Origin: Komagataella phaffii GS115
Lineage: Eukaryota > Ascomycota > Pichiomycetes > Pichiales > Pichiaceae
Assembly: GCF_000027005.1 (NCBI RefSeq)
Contig: NC_012963.1
Coordinates: 868,001-932,000 of the forward strand
Length of the DNA: 64,000 bases
Direction of reading: 5' to 3'
Positions 10,491-64,000 of this stretch are shown here, piece after piece; the first letter of the stretch is position 1, and the number at the start of each line of letters is the position of its first letter. Under the pieces are notes generated by a model. It was not told the DNA's origin and searched no databases. It saw only the letters and a list, made by a program, of their open reading frames with translations. The position numbers and the translations under genes were made by a program.

Positions 10491-13400
10491 ATGAGCATGG
10501 GAGCTACTGTTTCAAAGGAGTCCACTGTAGACCTAACACTGCCGCTGTTGCAGCTGAGTCCAAGACTGTTGTTCCTGCCTGGAGTTGTCTACAAGACGAC
10601 TTTCAAGTTCCAGGAGGGGGTCAACATCTTGCTACGTTTTAGAGACCTGTTCGATGAGTCTTTTTCTGAAAGAAATGACGTTCTAGGTGATATTGCCCGC
10701 TCGCAGAAGGAACAACAGGAAAACGATTATGACCATATCCCTTTTTTGAGCAGCAATGCTAAGAAGAGCATAGGTGTCCTGAAAGACCAACTTGAACTTG
10801 GTGGGTCTGATGACAAGTCACTTCCCTGGGTTATTGCCTGTCTCCCTGGGTTCGACCAGTCAGACCAGGACTCCATTGCCACTACAATTTGTCAGATAAC
10901 TGAGGTGTCCGTCGTTAACCAGGATATTGTACTATCCTTCGAAGCATTAACCAGAGGATCTTTAAAATCCAAAAAGACCATCTCCATGAATGAATCAACC
11001 ATATCTGTGGAAGTGGATATACCATTTACTGAGGTTGACCAGACCATCAGTAACAAGCTCATCTTGACAAATATTGATAAGGGTCTGCAACTACTGGAGA
11101 ATATCAAACAGTTTCTAGTCACCTATCAAAATGACATGATGAACCTTGAAGATACTACCATGGAAAAGAACTCCCGTCTAAAGTCTGCAATGATGATTTT
11201 GGCTCCGTTGTCTCACTTGATCTACGCCACTGTCTCATCTCAAGAATCCACTCATGCTTATACTAGACTATCCAACCAGTACAAGTCCGCTAAGAAGGAA
11301 TTAGATTCAACCAAAAACAGAAAGTCTTTACTCAAGAAGATTTTGAAAACTAATGATATTCTCACTTCAGTGTTCCCCTTCAGTATGGTTCAAAAGGTGG
11401 ATGTCTTGGGAGCTATTTCAAGTTCTACAGACAGGATCCAAACAACTATCGACGCGTTGGACTTTGCCAATCCACTTTTCGAAACATATTTGAACGTTGA
11501 TTATGTTCTGGAGACATGGAAAGATTTTGACACTAAGAACGGCAAAATTGCTGCCAATTTGACCAGGTCTCAATTAGTATCTAACCACTTGAAGGGCCTC
11601 AGAGTACTGATTGAAGACATCCAAGGAACTTCAAGAAGGCGGGTCAGTCCTTCTCAGAGAACTCGTTTGGCGCCTTCGCCCAATACAAATTCTGCAAATC
11701 AGGCACCGAAAGCTGGAGAATCAGACGACGAAAATAAAGAATTGCGTGATTTTATCAACAACCTCTCCAAATTGAAGATCTCAGAGGATGGAAAGAGGCT
11801 CGTTACCAAAGATTTCAACAGAATGACTCAAATGCAACCAAGTTCATCGGAGTACCAACTGCTCAGAACTTATTTAGAGATTATTATGGATATCCCATGG
11901 GAAACAAAAAATATTGTAAAACAACAAATTTTTGATCTAGACAAGGCCAAAGAAACACTAGATCAGGACCATTACGGAATGGACTCCGTCAAAGATAGGA
12001 TCTTAGAGTATTTAGCAGTTCTTAAACTCCACGATCACATTAAAACGTCCAACCCCAAGCAAGAAGACGAGGAAATCAAAGCCAGAGCACCCATTCTCTT
12101 ACTAACAGGTCCACCTGGTGTTGGTAAAACTTCGTTAGGAAAATCTATTGCAAAGGCTCTGAACAAAAAGTTCCAGCGAGTAAGTCTTGGAGGATTGAAG
12201 GATGAGTCCGAAATTAAGGGACATCGCAGAACTTACGTTGGAGCAATGCCAGGACTATTGACCCAAGCACTGAGGAAATCTCAATCTTTTGATCCAGTGA
12301 TACTTTTGGATGAAATTGACAAGGTTGTCGATGGATCCCAAGGCCCTGGTAGTCGTGTAAACGGTGATCCAGCTGCTGCTTTGCTTGAAGTGTTAGACCC
12401 AGAGCAAAATTCTAACTTCTCTGACCATTATATCGGGTTCCCACTTGACTTGTCTCGTGTTGTTTTTATCTGTACGTCCAACGATATGAGCATGATCAGT
12501 GCCCCATTAAGGGATAGAATGGAGGTTATTGAACTGAATGGCTACAATTATTTCGAAAAAGTGGAGATTGTTAAACAATTCTTATTACCAAAGCAGATCA
12601 AAAGAAACGGACTGCCTACGAATGCCGAATCACCATCGGTGGTTATTCCTGACGAAGTGATTATGTACATCGCTGTCAATTATACTCGGGAGCCAGGTAT
12701 TCGTAATTTGGAACGGTTAATAGGGAGTATCTGTCGGGGTAAGGCTATTGAATACTCTAGCTTGATGAGTAGTACTCAAGCTCCAGGCGAAATTCCAAAG
12801 GGATACGTTTCCAAGGTCACGGTAGATAATCTTTCAAAGTACATTGGAATACCCCCGGAATTGTCTACAGGCAAGAATATGAGGAATGATTCAGCTATCT
12901 CTAAAAAGTACGGAATCGTGAACGGCCTCAGTTACAATAGTAGCGGACATGGAAGTACCCTAGTCTTTGAAATGACCGGTATACCTAATAGTACTAACAC
13001 TAACATGATTACGACCGGCAGATTGGGTGATGTTCTTACAGAAAGTGTCAAGATCGCAAGAACAATTATAAGATCGATGTTTAGTCACAACTTACTACAA
13101 TTAAAGGATGACGAAACTTCAACTTCTGGGGATCTTTTGAAGAGGTTTGACACTACTCAGGTTCACATGCATGTGCCCGCTGGTGCTATTCAAAAAGACG
13201 GACCCAGTGCTGGAATCACCATTACGCTGTGCCTTCTGTCGGTGATGCTAGAGAAACCTGTACCAAGGGATTTGGCCATGACTGGAGAGATTACTTTGAG
13301 AGGGATGGTACTGCCAATTGGAGGTGTTCATGAGAAGCTACTAGGAGCACATTTAACTGGAACCGTTAAAAGGGTGATCCTTCCAAGAAGTAATCGAAGA

Positions 13401-13691
13401 GATGTCATTCAAGACTTTATCTCTAACTTGGAAGCCAATAACAGAAGTTCTAGGGATAAGCTACTGGTAGATCTTATCAAAGAGGAGGAGTCATTACTGT
13501 CCAACTCAAATAAATCCGAACGAATTGGAGTGTTCGGGCTTCCTGAAAAATGGGTTCAAGAGAAGTTGGGACTTCAAGTGAGCTACGTGGAAGAATTTTG
13601 GGATGTTATCCAGATTGTCTGGAACGATCAGGTTGAAATTGACAGCACCAAATTACACGAGCTAGCTACTAAAGAGTTCGCAAGGCTATGA
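10491..13691 (+). CDS. PLN: Peroxisomal Lon protease (AAA+ serine protease)
   Basis: 1066 aa from ATG 10491. The frame is open upstream to a GTG at 10326, but 10491 is the first ATG. In order: LON N-terminal substrate domain, coiled region, AAA+ module with Walker A GPPGVGKT (540-547) and Walker B VILLDEIDK, then the protease domain with catalytic Ser906 (QKDGPSAGI) and Lys949 (HEKLLGA). The C-terminus ends ARL, a PTS1 peroxisome-targeting tripeptide, and there is no mitochondrial presequence; both distinguish it from mitochondrial Pim1. The family degrades misfolded and oxidised matrix proteins, a fitting role in a yeast with large peroxisomes. Confidence 0.93.
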   Translation: MSMGATVSKESTVDLTLPLLQLSPRLLFLPGVVYKTTFKFQEGVNILLRFRDLFDESFSERNDVLGDIARSQKEQQENDYDHIPFLSSNAKKSIGVLKDQLELGGSDDKSLPWVIACLPGFDQSDQDSIATTICQITEVSVVNQDIVLSFEALTRGSLKSKKTISMNESTISVEVDIPFTEVDQTISNKLILTNIDKGLQLLENIKQFLVTYQNDMMNLEDTTMEKNSRLKSAMMILAPLSHLIYATVSSQESTHAYTRLSNQYKSAKKELDSTKNRKSLLKKILKTNDILTSVFPFSMVQKVDVLGAISSSTDRIQTTIDALDFANPLFETYLNVDYVLETWKDFDTKNGKIAANLTRSQLVSNHLKGLRVLIEDIQGTSRRRVSPSQRTRLAPSPNTNSANQAPKAGESDDENKELRDFINNLSKLKISEDGKRLVTKDFNRMTQMQPSSSEYQLLRTYLEIIMDIPWETKNIVKQQIFDLDKAKETLDQDHYGMDSVKDRILEYLAVLKLHDHIKTSNPKQEDEEIKARAPILLLTGPPGVGKTSLGKSIAKALNKKFQRVSLGGLKDESEIKGHRRTYVGAMPGLLTQALRKSQSFDPVILLDEIDKVVDGSQGPGSRVNGDPAAALLEVLDPEQNSNFSDHYIGFPLDLSRVVFICTSNDMSMISAPLRDRMEVIELNGYNYFEKVEIVKQFLLPKQIKRNGLPTNAESPSVVIPDEVIMYIAVNYTREPGIRNLERLIGSICRGKAIEYSSLMSSTQAPGEIPKGYVSKVTVDNLSKYIGIPPELSTGKNMRNDSAISKKYGIVNGLSYNSSGHGSTLVFEMTGIPNSTNTNMITTGRLGDVLTESVKIARTIIRSMFSHNLLQLKDDETSTSGDLLKRFDTTQVHMHVPAGAIQKDGPSAGITITLCLLSVMLEKPVPRDLAMTGEITLRGMVLPIGGVHEKLLGAHLTGTVKRVILPRSNRRDVIQDFISNLEANNRSSRDKLLVDLIKEEESLLSNSNKSERIGVFGLPEKWVQEKLGLQVSYVEEFWDVIQIVWNDQVEIDSTKLHELATKEFARL

Positions 13692-14177: not shown

Positions 14178-15015
14178 CTACTCTTTCTCTAAATTGCCCA
14201 GAGGAGCTCTGCAGTTTCCCATCTGAACATCTGAAGTTGCAATAATCAATTTTTTCAGTTGAACCAAAAAACTGTCGTTGTAAAGATTCTCCAGCAAAAG
14301 ACTGATCTTGTCTGTATCATCATTTTTTCCTTCCAAAAGATTAAAAAACCAGTTGCTTATTTCTTGGGGCCAAACATTTCCGGCAATCGAAGACAGACGA
14401 TTAAACCCCAAAGAGATTTTCTTTTCCAAGTCTTGCTCTCCTCCGGCATAGTAGTAGACTGTCCGATCCAATCTCTTTTGTACGGCTTGTATTTTCTCCG
14501 GATCACCAGCTTCTTTAATTCCTATAATCTGATGATTATCAAACAGATGCAAAATAGACTCAACGGCTAAATCAAAGCCTGTGCGTAAGGGATTATTGTA
14601 CAGGATAACTGGTTTGCTTAGTTTTTCAAGCACTTTTTCTGTATAACAAACGGCTTCAGCCTGACTGGGAACAAGATAAGGCGGATAGCCCAAAAGTACC
14701 GCTTTAATTGCATTTGATCGCTCAACTCTCTCTGCAAGACGCAAAACCTCCTTTTGACGGATACCAGAGACTCCAACCAAAATTTCAAGATCAGGAGCAA
14801 AGCGGGCTTCTTGGTCCAAGCTGTCTATCAGCTGTATTTTTTCTAGACGTACTCAAGCTGTGCTGTTCTCCGGTTGAACCGCATATCATTACAGAACGTA
14901 CGCCTTTTTGATATAAACGGTCAATGTGCTTAAGTGTCTCTTCTATATTCAAGCTTTCGTCTGCATGAAAAGCAGTCGGTACAGCAATGTGGAAATCTTC
15001 TTTCACCGAATTCAT
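14178..15015 (-). pseudogene. Bacterial-type dihydrodipicolinate synthase (DapA/NAL family) gene with one frameshift
   Basis: The minus strand encodes a nearly full-length class I aldolase in two frames. The N-terminal part (ATG at 15015, MNSVKEDFHIAVPTAF) contains the GSTGE motif (14866-14880) and runs off-frame near 14847. The remainder continues one base shifted to the stop at 14178. The coding span is 838 nt, which is 279 codons plus one base, so a single extra base explains the break. Catalytic features on the far side are intact: the Tyr of LYNNPLRTG (14598-14600) and the Schiff-base Lys of IKEAGD (14514-14516). Without the extra base the length would be 278 aa, close to the bacterial 290. 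Fungi make lysine by the aminoadipate route and do not need DapA, so horizontal transfer is the likely origin. Alternatives are another pyruvate-dependent aldolase activity, a sequencing error, or recoding. Confidence 0.8.
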
Positions 15016-15989: not shown

Positions 15990-18440
15990 ATGAGGCCAGG
16001 TTGGATATTCGTGGCGTTAGGAGCTTTGTTCTGCGCGGCAGATGCTAGGAGAGCGCTCTCTGCTACTTCGTTGGTGACCTGCCAGGACAACTCTTTGATT
16101 GATCCTTCTTATTTTAACGTGACTTTCTCTCCAGATACCGGTGCTTTGACCTACGATATTTCCATGACTTCAGAGATCAGCGATAATGTTATTGCAAACG
16201 TTAGGGTTTACGCTTATGGATTTGCTGTCATTGAAAGAGAGATCGACATGTGTACCATTGGCTGGAAACAATTCTGCCCTTTGTATCCAGGAACTTTGGA
16301 AATTGACTCTGTTGAATATATCGATAGAGACTTTGCTGACATGGTTCCAAGTATAGCCTATGTCGTCCCTGATATTGACGCAGTGGTTCGTGTCGTCTTA
16401 CATAATGCAAATGGCACCCAGTTGGGTTGTTTGCAGGCCTCCTTCTCCAACGGTAGAACGGTGTCTCATATAGCCGCCCAATGGGCTACTGCTGTTATTG
16501 CTGGTATTGGTTTGCTCGCAGGTGCTTTACTTTCTGCCTTTGGAAATTCTATTTCTGCGTCCCACATTTCTGCAAACTCCATATCACTCTTCCTTTATTT
16601 CCAATCTGTAGTAGTTGTTTGCATGCAGGCCGTGGAAGAGGTTCCCCCCATCGCTGGTGCTTGGTCAGAAAACCTGGCTTGGTCTATGGGACTTATCAGA
16701 GTTGAATTCATGCAGAAGATTTTCCGTTGGTTTGTCCAAGCAACTGGTGGTACTCCTACCTTATATTTGACATCCACCACTATTTCTATTTTGGTTCAAC
16801 GGTCAATCGATTTCATTGCGGACTACGTTCCTTTTGCTAACAGTTTTGTTACAACTCCAGCTGACACTTTGGAAGAACTAGTTGCTGGCAGATATCAAAC
16901 TAGAGACTTTGACCTGTATGCGTTGAGATCAACTGCTCACTTAAGAATCTTGAGAGGTATTGAGCGTGTGGGTCTCAAAGCTGGAATTGAACCAACTAGT
17001 ATTGTTTGCACTGGATTCACGTTTTTCTTCCTGTGTGGTTATGTTCTAGCTATAATCATTGTTCTTTTCAGAAGTTCGGTGGCCTTGGGAAAGAGAATGG
17101 GCTGGATTAAGAACTCGAAATTATTAGCTTTCAAGTTTTCTTGGAGACAAATTTTGAAAGGTGCTCTGCTAAGATACATTTATATTGGATTTACCCAGTT
17201 GACCATTCTATCTTTCTGGGAGTTTACCAGAAATGATTCTCCGGCAGTAGTAGTGCTGGCAGTGCTGTTTTTATTGCTTGCTCTTATCATCATGGGTTGG
17301 GCCAGTTATAGAACAATGTATTTTGGTTCCAAATCCATCAGAGAGCACAATAACCCCGCAGCGTTATTATATGGTAATCCACAGGTTCTAAGAAAGTATG
17401 GTTTCTTCTACAGCTTATTCAAAGCTCAAAAATACTGGTTTGGTATTGTTGTTCTTATCCATACTTTCATTCGATGTATTTTTATTGGTCTGGGTCAAGG
17501 TTCTGGTGTGGCCCAGGCGCTGGCATTTTTCATCATTGATTTGTTCTACACAGCTTTCGTGATTCACCAGATGCCATACCTTGATAAACTTACCAACATT
17601 GCTAACATCATGATTTGCGTGGTAATGACCATTAATTCTTTCTTATTCTTATTTTTTTCTCAACTTTTTAACCAGAATGTGTCAGTGGCCCCAATCATGG
17701 GTTGGGTGTTCTTTATTCTAAATGCTGCTTTCACCGTGATTTTGTTGATTTTGATCATTGTTTACACTTGTATGGCTATCTTCACAAACAACCCAGATGC
17801 CCGCTTTGCTCCCGCTAAGGACGACAGAACGTCATTCCAAAGGCACGGCGCTGATGATAAGAATGACGACTACCCTCCAGATGGAACTGCCGAGCTAGCG
17901 GCTTTGGGACAGGTTGCTCAAAACCACCAAGAAAACTGGGCTAGTGAAATGTACAAATTGAAGGACATGGTTGATTCATCTCCATCTCAATCGGAACTTA
18001 CCGAGAAGGACGAATTACTGGCTGAGCCTGAAGAAAAGCCTTCTCTTGGTGCTATGTTTACTAGAAAGCTTACTCGAGGCAAGTCATTCAAGAATGCTTT
18101 CAAGAGAGGAGGTAACACAGGCGATGTGACTAAAGGTGATGATAGCACAACAGAAGTTAAGCGTGTTTCGGACACTTTATTAAACTTTGGAGATGACGGT
18201 CATAAACGGACTGATTCCACCACACCAATAGTCAACAGCCAAGCAGCGCGTGTGGGCAATGATTCATCTTTTCCTGACTTGATTCCCCAACCTGTTATGA
18301 CGAGTGATTTCACTAGTGATAACGTCGGAGATCCAAGGGGATTTGTATTTCAAAACTCGCCCAGCTTGTCGGGCAACTCAATAAGAAATCCTAGTGGAGG
18401 AGATAAAGAGGATAAAGACAGTTTATATAAGTACATTTGA
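15990..18440 (+). CDS. FLC-family (TRP-like) ER/Golgi membrane protein
   Basis: 816 aa from ATG 15990; the frame opens two codons earlier at a TTG. A signal peptide (MRPGWIFVALGALFCAADA) is followed by a lumenal ML-like TRP_N domain (about 25-150; conserved Cys in LVTCQD, DMCTIGWKQFCP and LGCLQ). Nine or so membrane spans follow (about 165-600), including the ILKGALLRYIYIGF and PYLDKLTNIANIMI regions typical of the fungal TRP-like family. The cytosolic tail (about 610-816) is polar and Ser/Thr-rich. Relatives in S. cerevisiae are Flc1-3, linked to FAD uptake into the ER, calcium release and cell-wall maintenance. The paralog cannot be named. Confidence 0.9.
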   Translation: MRPGWIFVALGALFCAADARRALSATSLVTCQDNSLIDPSYFNVTFSPDTGALTYDISMTSEISDNVIANVRVYAYGFAVIEREIDMCTIGWKQFCPLYPGTLEIDSVEYIDRDFADMVPSIAYVVPDIDAVVRVVLHNANGTQLGCLQASFSNGRTVSHIAAQWATAVIAGIGLLAGALLSAFGNSISASHISANSISLFLYFQSVVVVCMQAVEEVPPIAGAWSENLAWSMGLIRVEFMQKIFRWFVQATGGTPTLYLTSTTISILVQRSIDFIADYVPFANSFVTTPADTLEELVAGRYQTRDFDLYALRSTAHLRILRGIERVGLKAGIEPTSIVCTGFTFFFLCGYVLAIIIVLFRSSVALGKRMGWIKNSKLLAFKFSWRQILKGALLRYIYIGFTQLTILSFWEFTRNDSPAVVVLAVLFLLLALIIMGWASYRTMYFGSKSIREHNNPAALLYGNPQVLRKYGFFYSLFKAQKYWFGIVVLIHTFIRCIFIGLGQGSGVAQALAFFIIDLFYTAFVIHQMPYLDKLTNIANIMICVVMTINSFLFLFFSQLFNQNVSVAPIMGWVFFILNAAFTVILLILIIVYTCMAIFTNNPDARFAPAKDDRTSFQRHGADDKNDDYPPDGTAELAALGQVAQNHQENWASEMYKLKDMVDSSPSQSELTEKDELLAEPEEKPSLGAMFTRKLTRGKSFKNAFKRGGNTGDVTKGDDSTTEVKRVSDTLLNFGDDGHKRTDSTTPIVNSQAARVGNDSSFPDLIPQPVMTSDFTSDNVGDPRGFVFQNSPSLSGNSIRNPSGGDKEDKDSLYKYI

Positions 18441-24886: not shown

Positions 24887-25536
24887 TTAAATGTACTGAG
24901 AGAGCCATCTGATACCCTCACCGTAACCCTGTCTTAAGTAGATAGAGCAGGTAAATACCTCCAAAGGTCTTTGACCTTCAACCAATTGAACCTTGTCCTT
25001 ACCAGTAGTGGTCATCAAACCCAATGCATGTCTGAGTTCATTCTCAGAGACGGCAGTAGATTTATCAATCTTGTTACCCAAGACCAAAACAGGAACCTTG
25101 GAAAGTTCTTCAATCTTCAAGAGCGCGTCCAACTCGACTCTGGACTCCTCAAATCTCTCAGGGTCTGCGATATCAACAAGATAGACAATTCCGTCCACCT
25201 CTGGGAAGTAGTCTTTCCAGACTCTTCTGGCTTGTTCGTGACCACCTAAATCGAAAGTGGTGAATCTGACGTTTCCGATAGAGAGCTCTTCGGAAGTTGG
25301 ATGCCATGTAGGCTGCAAAGTAGCCAACCTATCGTTCTTCAACATGTGCAACAACGTTGTCTTACCAGCATTGTCCAAACCTAGAAACAGCAATTTGGCG
25401 TGCTTATTCCATAACCCTAAAGATGCCAACACATCCTGGACTTTAACAGTTAGTTGAACTAGATCTTCTATGGCAAACGACAAAAGGGGAGGAGTACATC
25501 CAAAATAAGATACTTACACCAGTTTAGTACCCACAT
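24887..25536 (-). CDS. SAR1: COPII-coat small GTPase Sar1 (two exons)
   Basis: 190 aa after splicing exon 1 (25518-25536, 19 nt) to exon 2 (24887-25440). The exon 2 frame continues upstream to an in-frame ATG inside the intron, but that would give the wrong N-terminus. Splicing yields [19 protein letters not shown], the expected membrane-inserting amphipathic helix. G motifs: GLDNAGKT (27-34), [12 protein letters not shown] and NKID. It starts COPII vesicle budding at the ER, activated by Sec12 and switched off by Sec23. It shares a divergent promoter with SEC27, a COPI coat gene. Confidence 0.96.
25441..25517 (-). other. SAR1: SAR1 intron (77 nt)
   Basis: The donor GTAAGT follows the 19-nt first exon. 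The acceptor is AAAG, with an AACTAAC branch-point-like sequence ending 8 nt before the exon. Removing it restores the Sar1 N-terminus in phase 1. Confidence 0.92.
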
Positions 25537-63371: not shown

Positions 63372-64000
63372 CTAAAAAATGATATCCTCTTCCTGTTGGG
63401 CAGTAAGATCATCAGCCGGTTCATCTATGAACTTGGAAACCTGTCTAGCCTCTTCCTCAGGATCGTACTCCGCTTTAGCTTGCTCACTAGCTTCATTATC
63501 TTTGTTTTCTTCGGCCTTCTGGTCTGCCTCCAACTTATCATTGGCTTTCTTTTCCAGTAATTGGGCCTTCTTTGCAGCAGCCTCGGCATCCTGCAAAGCA
63601 GTTTGTTGTTGTTTCTTCTCTTGAACCTTCTTCAGTCGGTAGAACTCCTCTCTATCAAGCTCGTCAAGTTCCGAGTTAATGTATGCAATGGTGTTTTCTG
63701 TACGGGGAATGACAACATGTTCGATAGCGTTCACACGTCTGTTCGTAACCTTGATAACCTCATCCAATATGATAAAAGCAGTCTGCAATGAAGCCAATTC
63801 CACCAATGTCTCCACCGAACTCGTATATACTTCTGCAGCCTTTTGGACCTGAAGACCACCTCGTCCCAGTCCTGTCATCTTGAAATCATTGATATCTTCG
63901 TTGATATGGGTCTCAAATTGGGGAAGACGAACACCACTTACGTTCTCTTCACGGGCTTTCACCTGGAATCTGGCGCTCTTGACTGAGTCCTGGACTGAAT
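63372..64000 (-). CDS. VMA8: V-ATPase subunit D, C-terminal 209 residues (cut by window edge)
   Basis: The frame has no stop up to the window end, so the gene continues beyond 64000. The visible part starts [22 protein letters not shown], which matches internal Vma8 sequence, so the GTG at 63962 is not a start. [22 protein letters not shown] is the family signature, followed by a long coiled coil and a tail ending EEDIIF. About 45 N-terminal residues are missing. Subunit D is the central rotor shaft of the vacuolar proton pump. Confidence 0.95.

Follow-up and report, generated by a model that had tools for sequence, protein, structure and literature searches.

Dihydrodipicolinate synthase-like proteins and acquired genes in yeasts

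The acquisition of bacterial enzyme genes by yeasts is known and fairly ordinary, an example being URA1 in the Saccharomycetaceae (PMC5499181, partial text). The gene considered here lies on the minus strand, from 15015 to 14178, of a 64,000-nucleotide stretch of a Komagataella phaffii GS115 chromosome (contig NC_012963.1, positions 868,001 to 932,000; hereafter the window), where two overlapping frames encode successive parts of one protein of the dihydrodipicolinate synthase/N-acetylneuraminate lyase (DHDPS/NAL) family. Like the URA1-type acquisitions, it is a lone metabolic gene with bacterial affinities, located on a yeast nuclear chromosome, but its function and any selective benefit are putative.

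The protein resembles DapA (TIGR00674) in its fold, as predicted here, and in its Schiff-base lysine, tyrosine and arginine. However, its score on the dapA model is 138 bits, below the equivalog cut-off of 206.15, and the protein is 23–28% identical to the dapA-labelled rows of our tree and belongs to a separate clade. It also differs from N-acetylneuraminate lyase (NanA), with scores of 61.5 bits on TIGR00683 (cut-off 382) and 67.9 bits on NF003164 (cut-off 281). The three fungal DapA-like proteins encoded in the same genome are members of the same Pfam family, but they are 26–30% identical to the query, form a clade of their own and have no arginine following the YxYP stretch. Proteins entitled "dihydrodipicolinate synthase family protein" in Bacillota (Terribacillus, Shouchella, Enterococcus, Trichococcus and others) are 43–54% identical to the query and have the motifs TGEQH, PPY..P.Q, YN.P.RTGF and GxK[ED]AG in common with it; the difference is that the query gene sits on a yeast chromosome. 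Literature searches for Komagataella transfer, dihydrodipicolinate and PP7435_CHR1-0485 (the locus tag of the intact protein described below) gave no title or abstract on this gene among those listed, and supplementary lists of yeast transfers may already contain it; the word "dihydrodipicolinate" was not found in the main text of PMC9036795 or PMC9754263.

An intact protein in CBS 7435 and the cause of the frameshift

We consider, with a probability of about 0.78, that a bacterial pyruvate aldolase or lyase gene was transferred to this yeast, that the parent strain has it in intact form, and that an error of the reference explains the frameshift of the window. The first frame (14791–15015, minus strand) starts with the ATG at 15015 and encodes 74 residues, of which the first 57 are those of the intact protein and the remainder is a shifted tail that runs to a stop. 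The second frame, as translated (14178–14846, minus strand), comprises one leading codon, residues 58–278 of the intact protein and the stop codon (14180–14178); it is open from stop to stop over 14181–14852, and the two frames overlap over 14794–14852. Both pieces match the Pfam family DHDPS (PF00701), the first at profile positions 8–56 (E = 6e-07) and the second at positions 70–277 (E = 9.9e-26), and both pass the cut-off of 22.1 bits, one with 90.6 and the other with 28.9. The matches are in order and do not overlap on the profile, and are therefore not due to chance. The first-pass annotation had seen in these minus-strand frames one DapA/NAL aldolase with the motifs GSTGE, LYNNPLRTG and IKEAGD, and all three motifs are indeed present in the pieces.

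The protein database contains an intact protein of 278 residues, PP7435_CHR1-0485 from K. phaffii CBS 7435 (P0003), whose cluster has three member sequences on 11 contigs; the longest of these (2.9 Mb) is presumably chromosome 1 of CBS 7435. The first piece is identical to P0003 over its initial 57 residues (1–57 of P0003), and the second over all but one of its 222 residues, the final 221 being residues 58–278 of P0003, so that at the protein level the junction is the sole difference between P0003 and the window. This junction (14840–14852, minus strand) contains a single base in excess of the frame of CBS 7435; this surplus base adjoins a stretch of six A and can be placed within about 14844–14847. 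The 278-codon length, the coordinates and the single surplus base near 14847 that had been proposed before the comparison with P0003 all agree with these results.

GS115 is a derivative of NRRL Y-11430 obtained by nitrosoguanidine mutagenesis (PMC10914597), and Brady et al. write the parent as "Y-11430 (CBS7435)" (PMC7003935). Love et al. (2016) resequenced GS115 and its parent and report no indels (PMC4974788); the texts of these three papers were available in part. The surplus base is best explained by an error, in base calling or assembly, of the earlier GS115 reference, presumably the 2009 assembly, because CBS 7435 has an intact frame and the resequencing of GS115 reports no indels. Such an error is most likely, rather than a mutation. 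Among the causes listed in the first-pass annotation, a sequencing error is thus the likeliest, whereas a recent breakage is disfavored by the same two observations.

The best surviving alternative, although unlikely, is a real mutation of the GS115 stock that was sequenced, i.e., a strain-specific loss of the transferred gene, for example during the mutagenesis from which GS115 originates. The use of nitrosoguanidine is compatible with it, and the same strain lineage did acquire a loss-of-function frameshift in HOC1 (PMC9754263; PMC10914597, partial texts). Against it, the frame of the parent is intact, and the two-way resequencing, in the available part of its text, reports no indels that separate GS115 from the parent.

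If the frameshift is a reference error, a probably false pseudogene is removed, and users of this sequence would otherwise overlook an enzyme that is very probably present in the strain. What was most striking in the earlier description, a fresh break, is probably an artefact.

Enzyme class and proposed activity

The predicted model of P0003 is of the (β/α)8 barrel type (predicted local distance difference test score, pLDDT, of 91.1) and matches solved DHDPS and NAL structures about equally well. In the alignment to solved DHDPS, Lys167 corresponds to the lysine of IKEA, Tyr139 to the tyrosine of YN.P, Arg144 to the arginine that follows it, Tyr113 to the second tyrosine of YYN, and Ser47-Thr48 to the TT pair of GTTGE; we take the counterparts of all these residues to have catalytic roles. 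Lys167 (the Schiff-base lysine), Tyr139 and Arg144, in P0003 numbering, are encoded in the second frame (within 14178–14846, minus strand).

The name dapA, which the first-pass annotation gave to the gene, is correct as far as the DHDPS/NAL family and a DapA-like character are concerned, but it is too specific, since the scores of P0003 and of its relatives in bacteria fall well short of the dapA cut-off. Seven bacterial genomes with a relative of the query were scored: the relative reaches 119.0–159.8 bits on the dapA model, and six of the seven contain a separate gene above the cut-off (the best score in the seventh is 204.6); LysA is above its cut-off in five. The yeast genome (four contigs, 9,216,378 bases in all) contains no match to DapB_C and no LysA above the cut-off; its one LysA match (131.4 bits vs 297.9) is probably ornithine decarboxylase.

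It is therefore quite improbable that the query is a true 4-hydroxy-tetrahydrodipicolinate synthase, devoted to lysine or dipicolinate synthesis in the yeast. The best NCBIfam model for P0003 is dapA, and Arg144 occupies the arginine site of solved DHDPS, whose role is presumably to bind a carboxylate, but the low dapA score, the separate over-cut-off gene in six of the seven bacterial genomes and the absence of DapB and of an over-cut-off LysA in the yeast genome indicate that the protein probably does not serve in lysine synthesis. In K. phaffii, the names given in connection with this synthesis include Lys20 and Lys21 (PMC8709784, partial text). As judged from these scores, the query is a DapA-like member of another subfamily than the lysine DapA, and most likely a stand-alone Schiff-base pyruvate aldolase or lyase. 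This points to an uncharacterised aldolase subfamily in many Bacillota, which is not DapA, even if some records bear this name.

We propose that a bacterial gene encoding such a stand-alone enzyme, a pyruvate aldolase or lyase from a mostly Bacillota subfamily of the DHDPS/NAL family distinct from lysine DapA, entered the Komagataella lineage, long enough ago for the identity of the protein to any named relative to have fallen to about 54% at most. In the parent strain it would encode the complete predicted barrel of 278 residues. A Schiff base would arise between Lys167 and pyruvate (or the keto group of a 2-keto acid), with Tyr139 acting as a proton relay and Arg144 holding a carboxylate of the partner, and the enzyme would join or split pyruvate and an aldehyde. 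The family, the residues, the bacterial affinity and the intact parental frame are read directly from the sequences; catalysis by the protein is what we infer. We give very little credence to the idea that this methylotrophic yeast has kept the aldolase because it joins pyruvate to a small aldehyde (C1 or C2, for instance formaldehyde), which would provide Komagataella with a side route for formaldehyde that other yeasts lack; YagE-type members of the family presumably join pyruvate with such aldehydes.

Bacterial affinity and horizontal transfer

Two protein searches were considered, one with 112 hits and another with 120 listed of 652. Among the rows that name an organism, K. phaffii is the sole eukaryote and all others are Bacillota, except one Orbus (P0059). 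The nearest named relatives among the matches listed are Bacillota proteins, the best being 54% identical to the query. A scan of prokaryote genomes found 171 relatives, of which 80 loci were kept; according to their titles 77 are from Bacillota, and Synergistaceae, Orbaceae and Rothia provide one each. These bacterial loci are 43–54% identical to the query over nearly its full length.

The main tree has 63 rows: the query, 49 relatives (42 loci and seven database proteins) and 13 others, namely three yeast paralogues, seven rows that we labelled dapA and three that we classed as "other" (L097 and L098, which are above the dapA cut-off, and L095, which is just under it; the dapA-labelled L099 groups with them). 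The yeast side of this tree consists of the three paralogues of this genome. The other 38 of the 80 loci, most database proteins and P0114 are outside it, P0113 is outside both this tree and an earlier one, and L096, which is above the dapA cut-off, is in neither. In the earlier tree the row of one paralogue (L004) held a neighbouring alcohol dehydrogenase-like open reading frame (ORF), and the main claim uses the 63-row tree.

In this tree the query and the 49 relatives are split from the 13 other rows with a support of 100/99. A topology constrained to unite the query with the yeast paralogues is worse by 44 log units and is rejected by the approximately unbiased (AU) test (p-AU 0.0007), whereas a clade of the query with Shouchella is not rejected (p-AU 0.485). 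The search and phylogeny suggested as a check by the first-pass annotation thus give Bacillota as the closest named matches and place the yeast paralogues apart, which supports, at the level of sequence comparison, its proposal that the gene was horizontally acquired from bacteria. One clear bacterial acquisition is thereby added for an industrial, methanol-eating yeast.

Contamination as the source of the gene is unlikely, because the gene is a single one between a Lon-family gene and a TRP-family gene on a 2.8-Mb contig, and because the P0003 cluster includes the 2.9-Mb contig. By Pfam, the flanking genes encode a Lon-family protease (Lon_C, AAA; 10491–13691, plus strand) and a TRP-family membrane protein (TRP, TRP_N; 15990–18440, plus strand). 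A scan of the window with the bacterial code found no tRNA beside the site.

It is very doubtful that the query is instead an ancient fungal DapA-like paralogue which merely looks bacterial. The genome does have three further PF00701 genes, L003 (C1:1221656-1222495), L004 (C4:1128651-1129478) and L005 (C4:696562-697383), but these group in their own clade (100/99), their identity to the query is lower than that of the bacterial loci, and the AU test, with these paralogues of this genome, rejects their union with it.

We give practically no weight to programmed +1 frameshifting or a tiny intron, by which the full protein would be made from the sequence as given: the frames do overlap and the junction contains GTACGT, similar to what we take to be the 5′ splice site consensus, but an intron that restores the intact protein would be a single base, and the intact protein reads straight through Glu58 and Lys59, which in 19 aligned proteins are invariant and at least 90% conserved, respectively, so the option of a recoded gene raised in the first-pass annotation finds no support.

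Several points weigh against a transferred gene with a reference error. The comparison with CBS 7435 rests on its protein and not on its DNA, and the error is deduced from the parent protein and the published resequencing rather than from reads. The NRRL Y-11430 and CBS 7435 stocks may not be identical everywhere; one paper, in the part of its text that was available, has a section on three genes in these two strains. As regards the transfer, the partner of the query depends on the tree: it joins Shouchella at 93/48 in the earlier tree, in which the bootstrap is not settled, and the database protein P0013 with an Orbaceae protein at 86/77 in the 63-row tree. Codon usage is uninformative on the age of the transfer, a wrong frame scoring about as well as the right one. 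Finally, no enzyme assay or expression result for this gene was found in the literature.

Bacterial relatives and their neighbourhoods

With a crude ORF caller, even the most recurrent gene family up to six ORFs away from the relative was present in at most 13 of the 80 loci. Among 20 nearby proteins that were scanned, one gives no match in Pfam; aldo/keto reductase and PTS EIIC appear twice each, and the rest differ. The bacterial neighbourhoods vary, and therefore no pathway can be read from the operons. A local block in Trichococcus and in a record titled Sedimentibacter contains a LysR regulator, an aldo/keto reductase, DUF697 and a nitroreductase (in L019), and a second block is found in four Enterococcus loci (L074, L082, L086 and L087); neither extends across the subfamily. 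The Sedimentibacter-titled record (L073) falls within Trichococcus and shares its local block of genes, which reflects either a transfer or a mislabelled genome. Some genomes have two copies (L020/L024 and L062/L077, among loci L009–L088).

P0013, the second-best among the listed matches (53% identity), belongs to a cluster on 10 contigs, the longest of 237 kb, and the same protein was not found among the 80 kept prokaryote loci. Carriage of the subfamily by plasmids was also considered: 884 of 72,556 plasmid records matched, all with less than 60% identity, and the best 15 of the 884 are at 27–28%, so that those 15 are not of this subfamily.

Other open reading frames in the window

Two other ORFs of the window, both on the minus strand, appear incomplete. 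The first (24887–25345) is of the Arf family and starts at profile position 33; an upstream 5′ exon or another frame problem is likely. The second (63372–63878) matches only positions 111–196 of ATP synthase subunit D, and its N-terminal part may be in another exon or past the end of the window.
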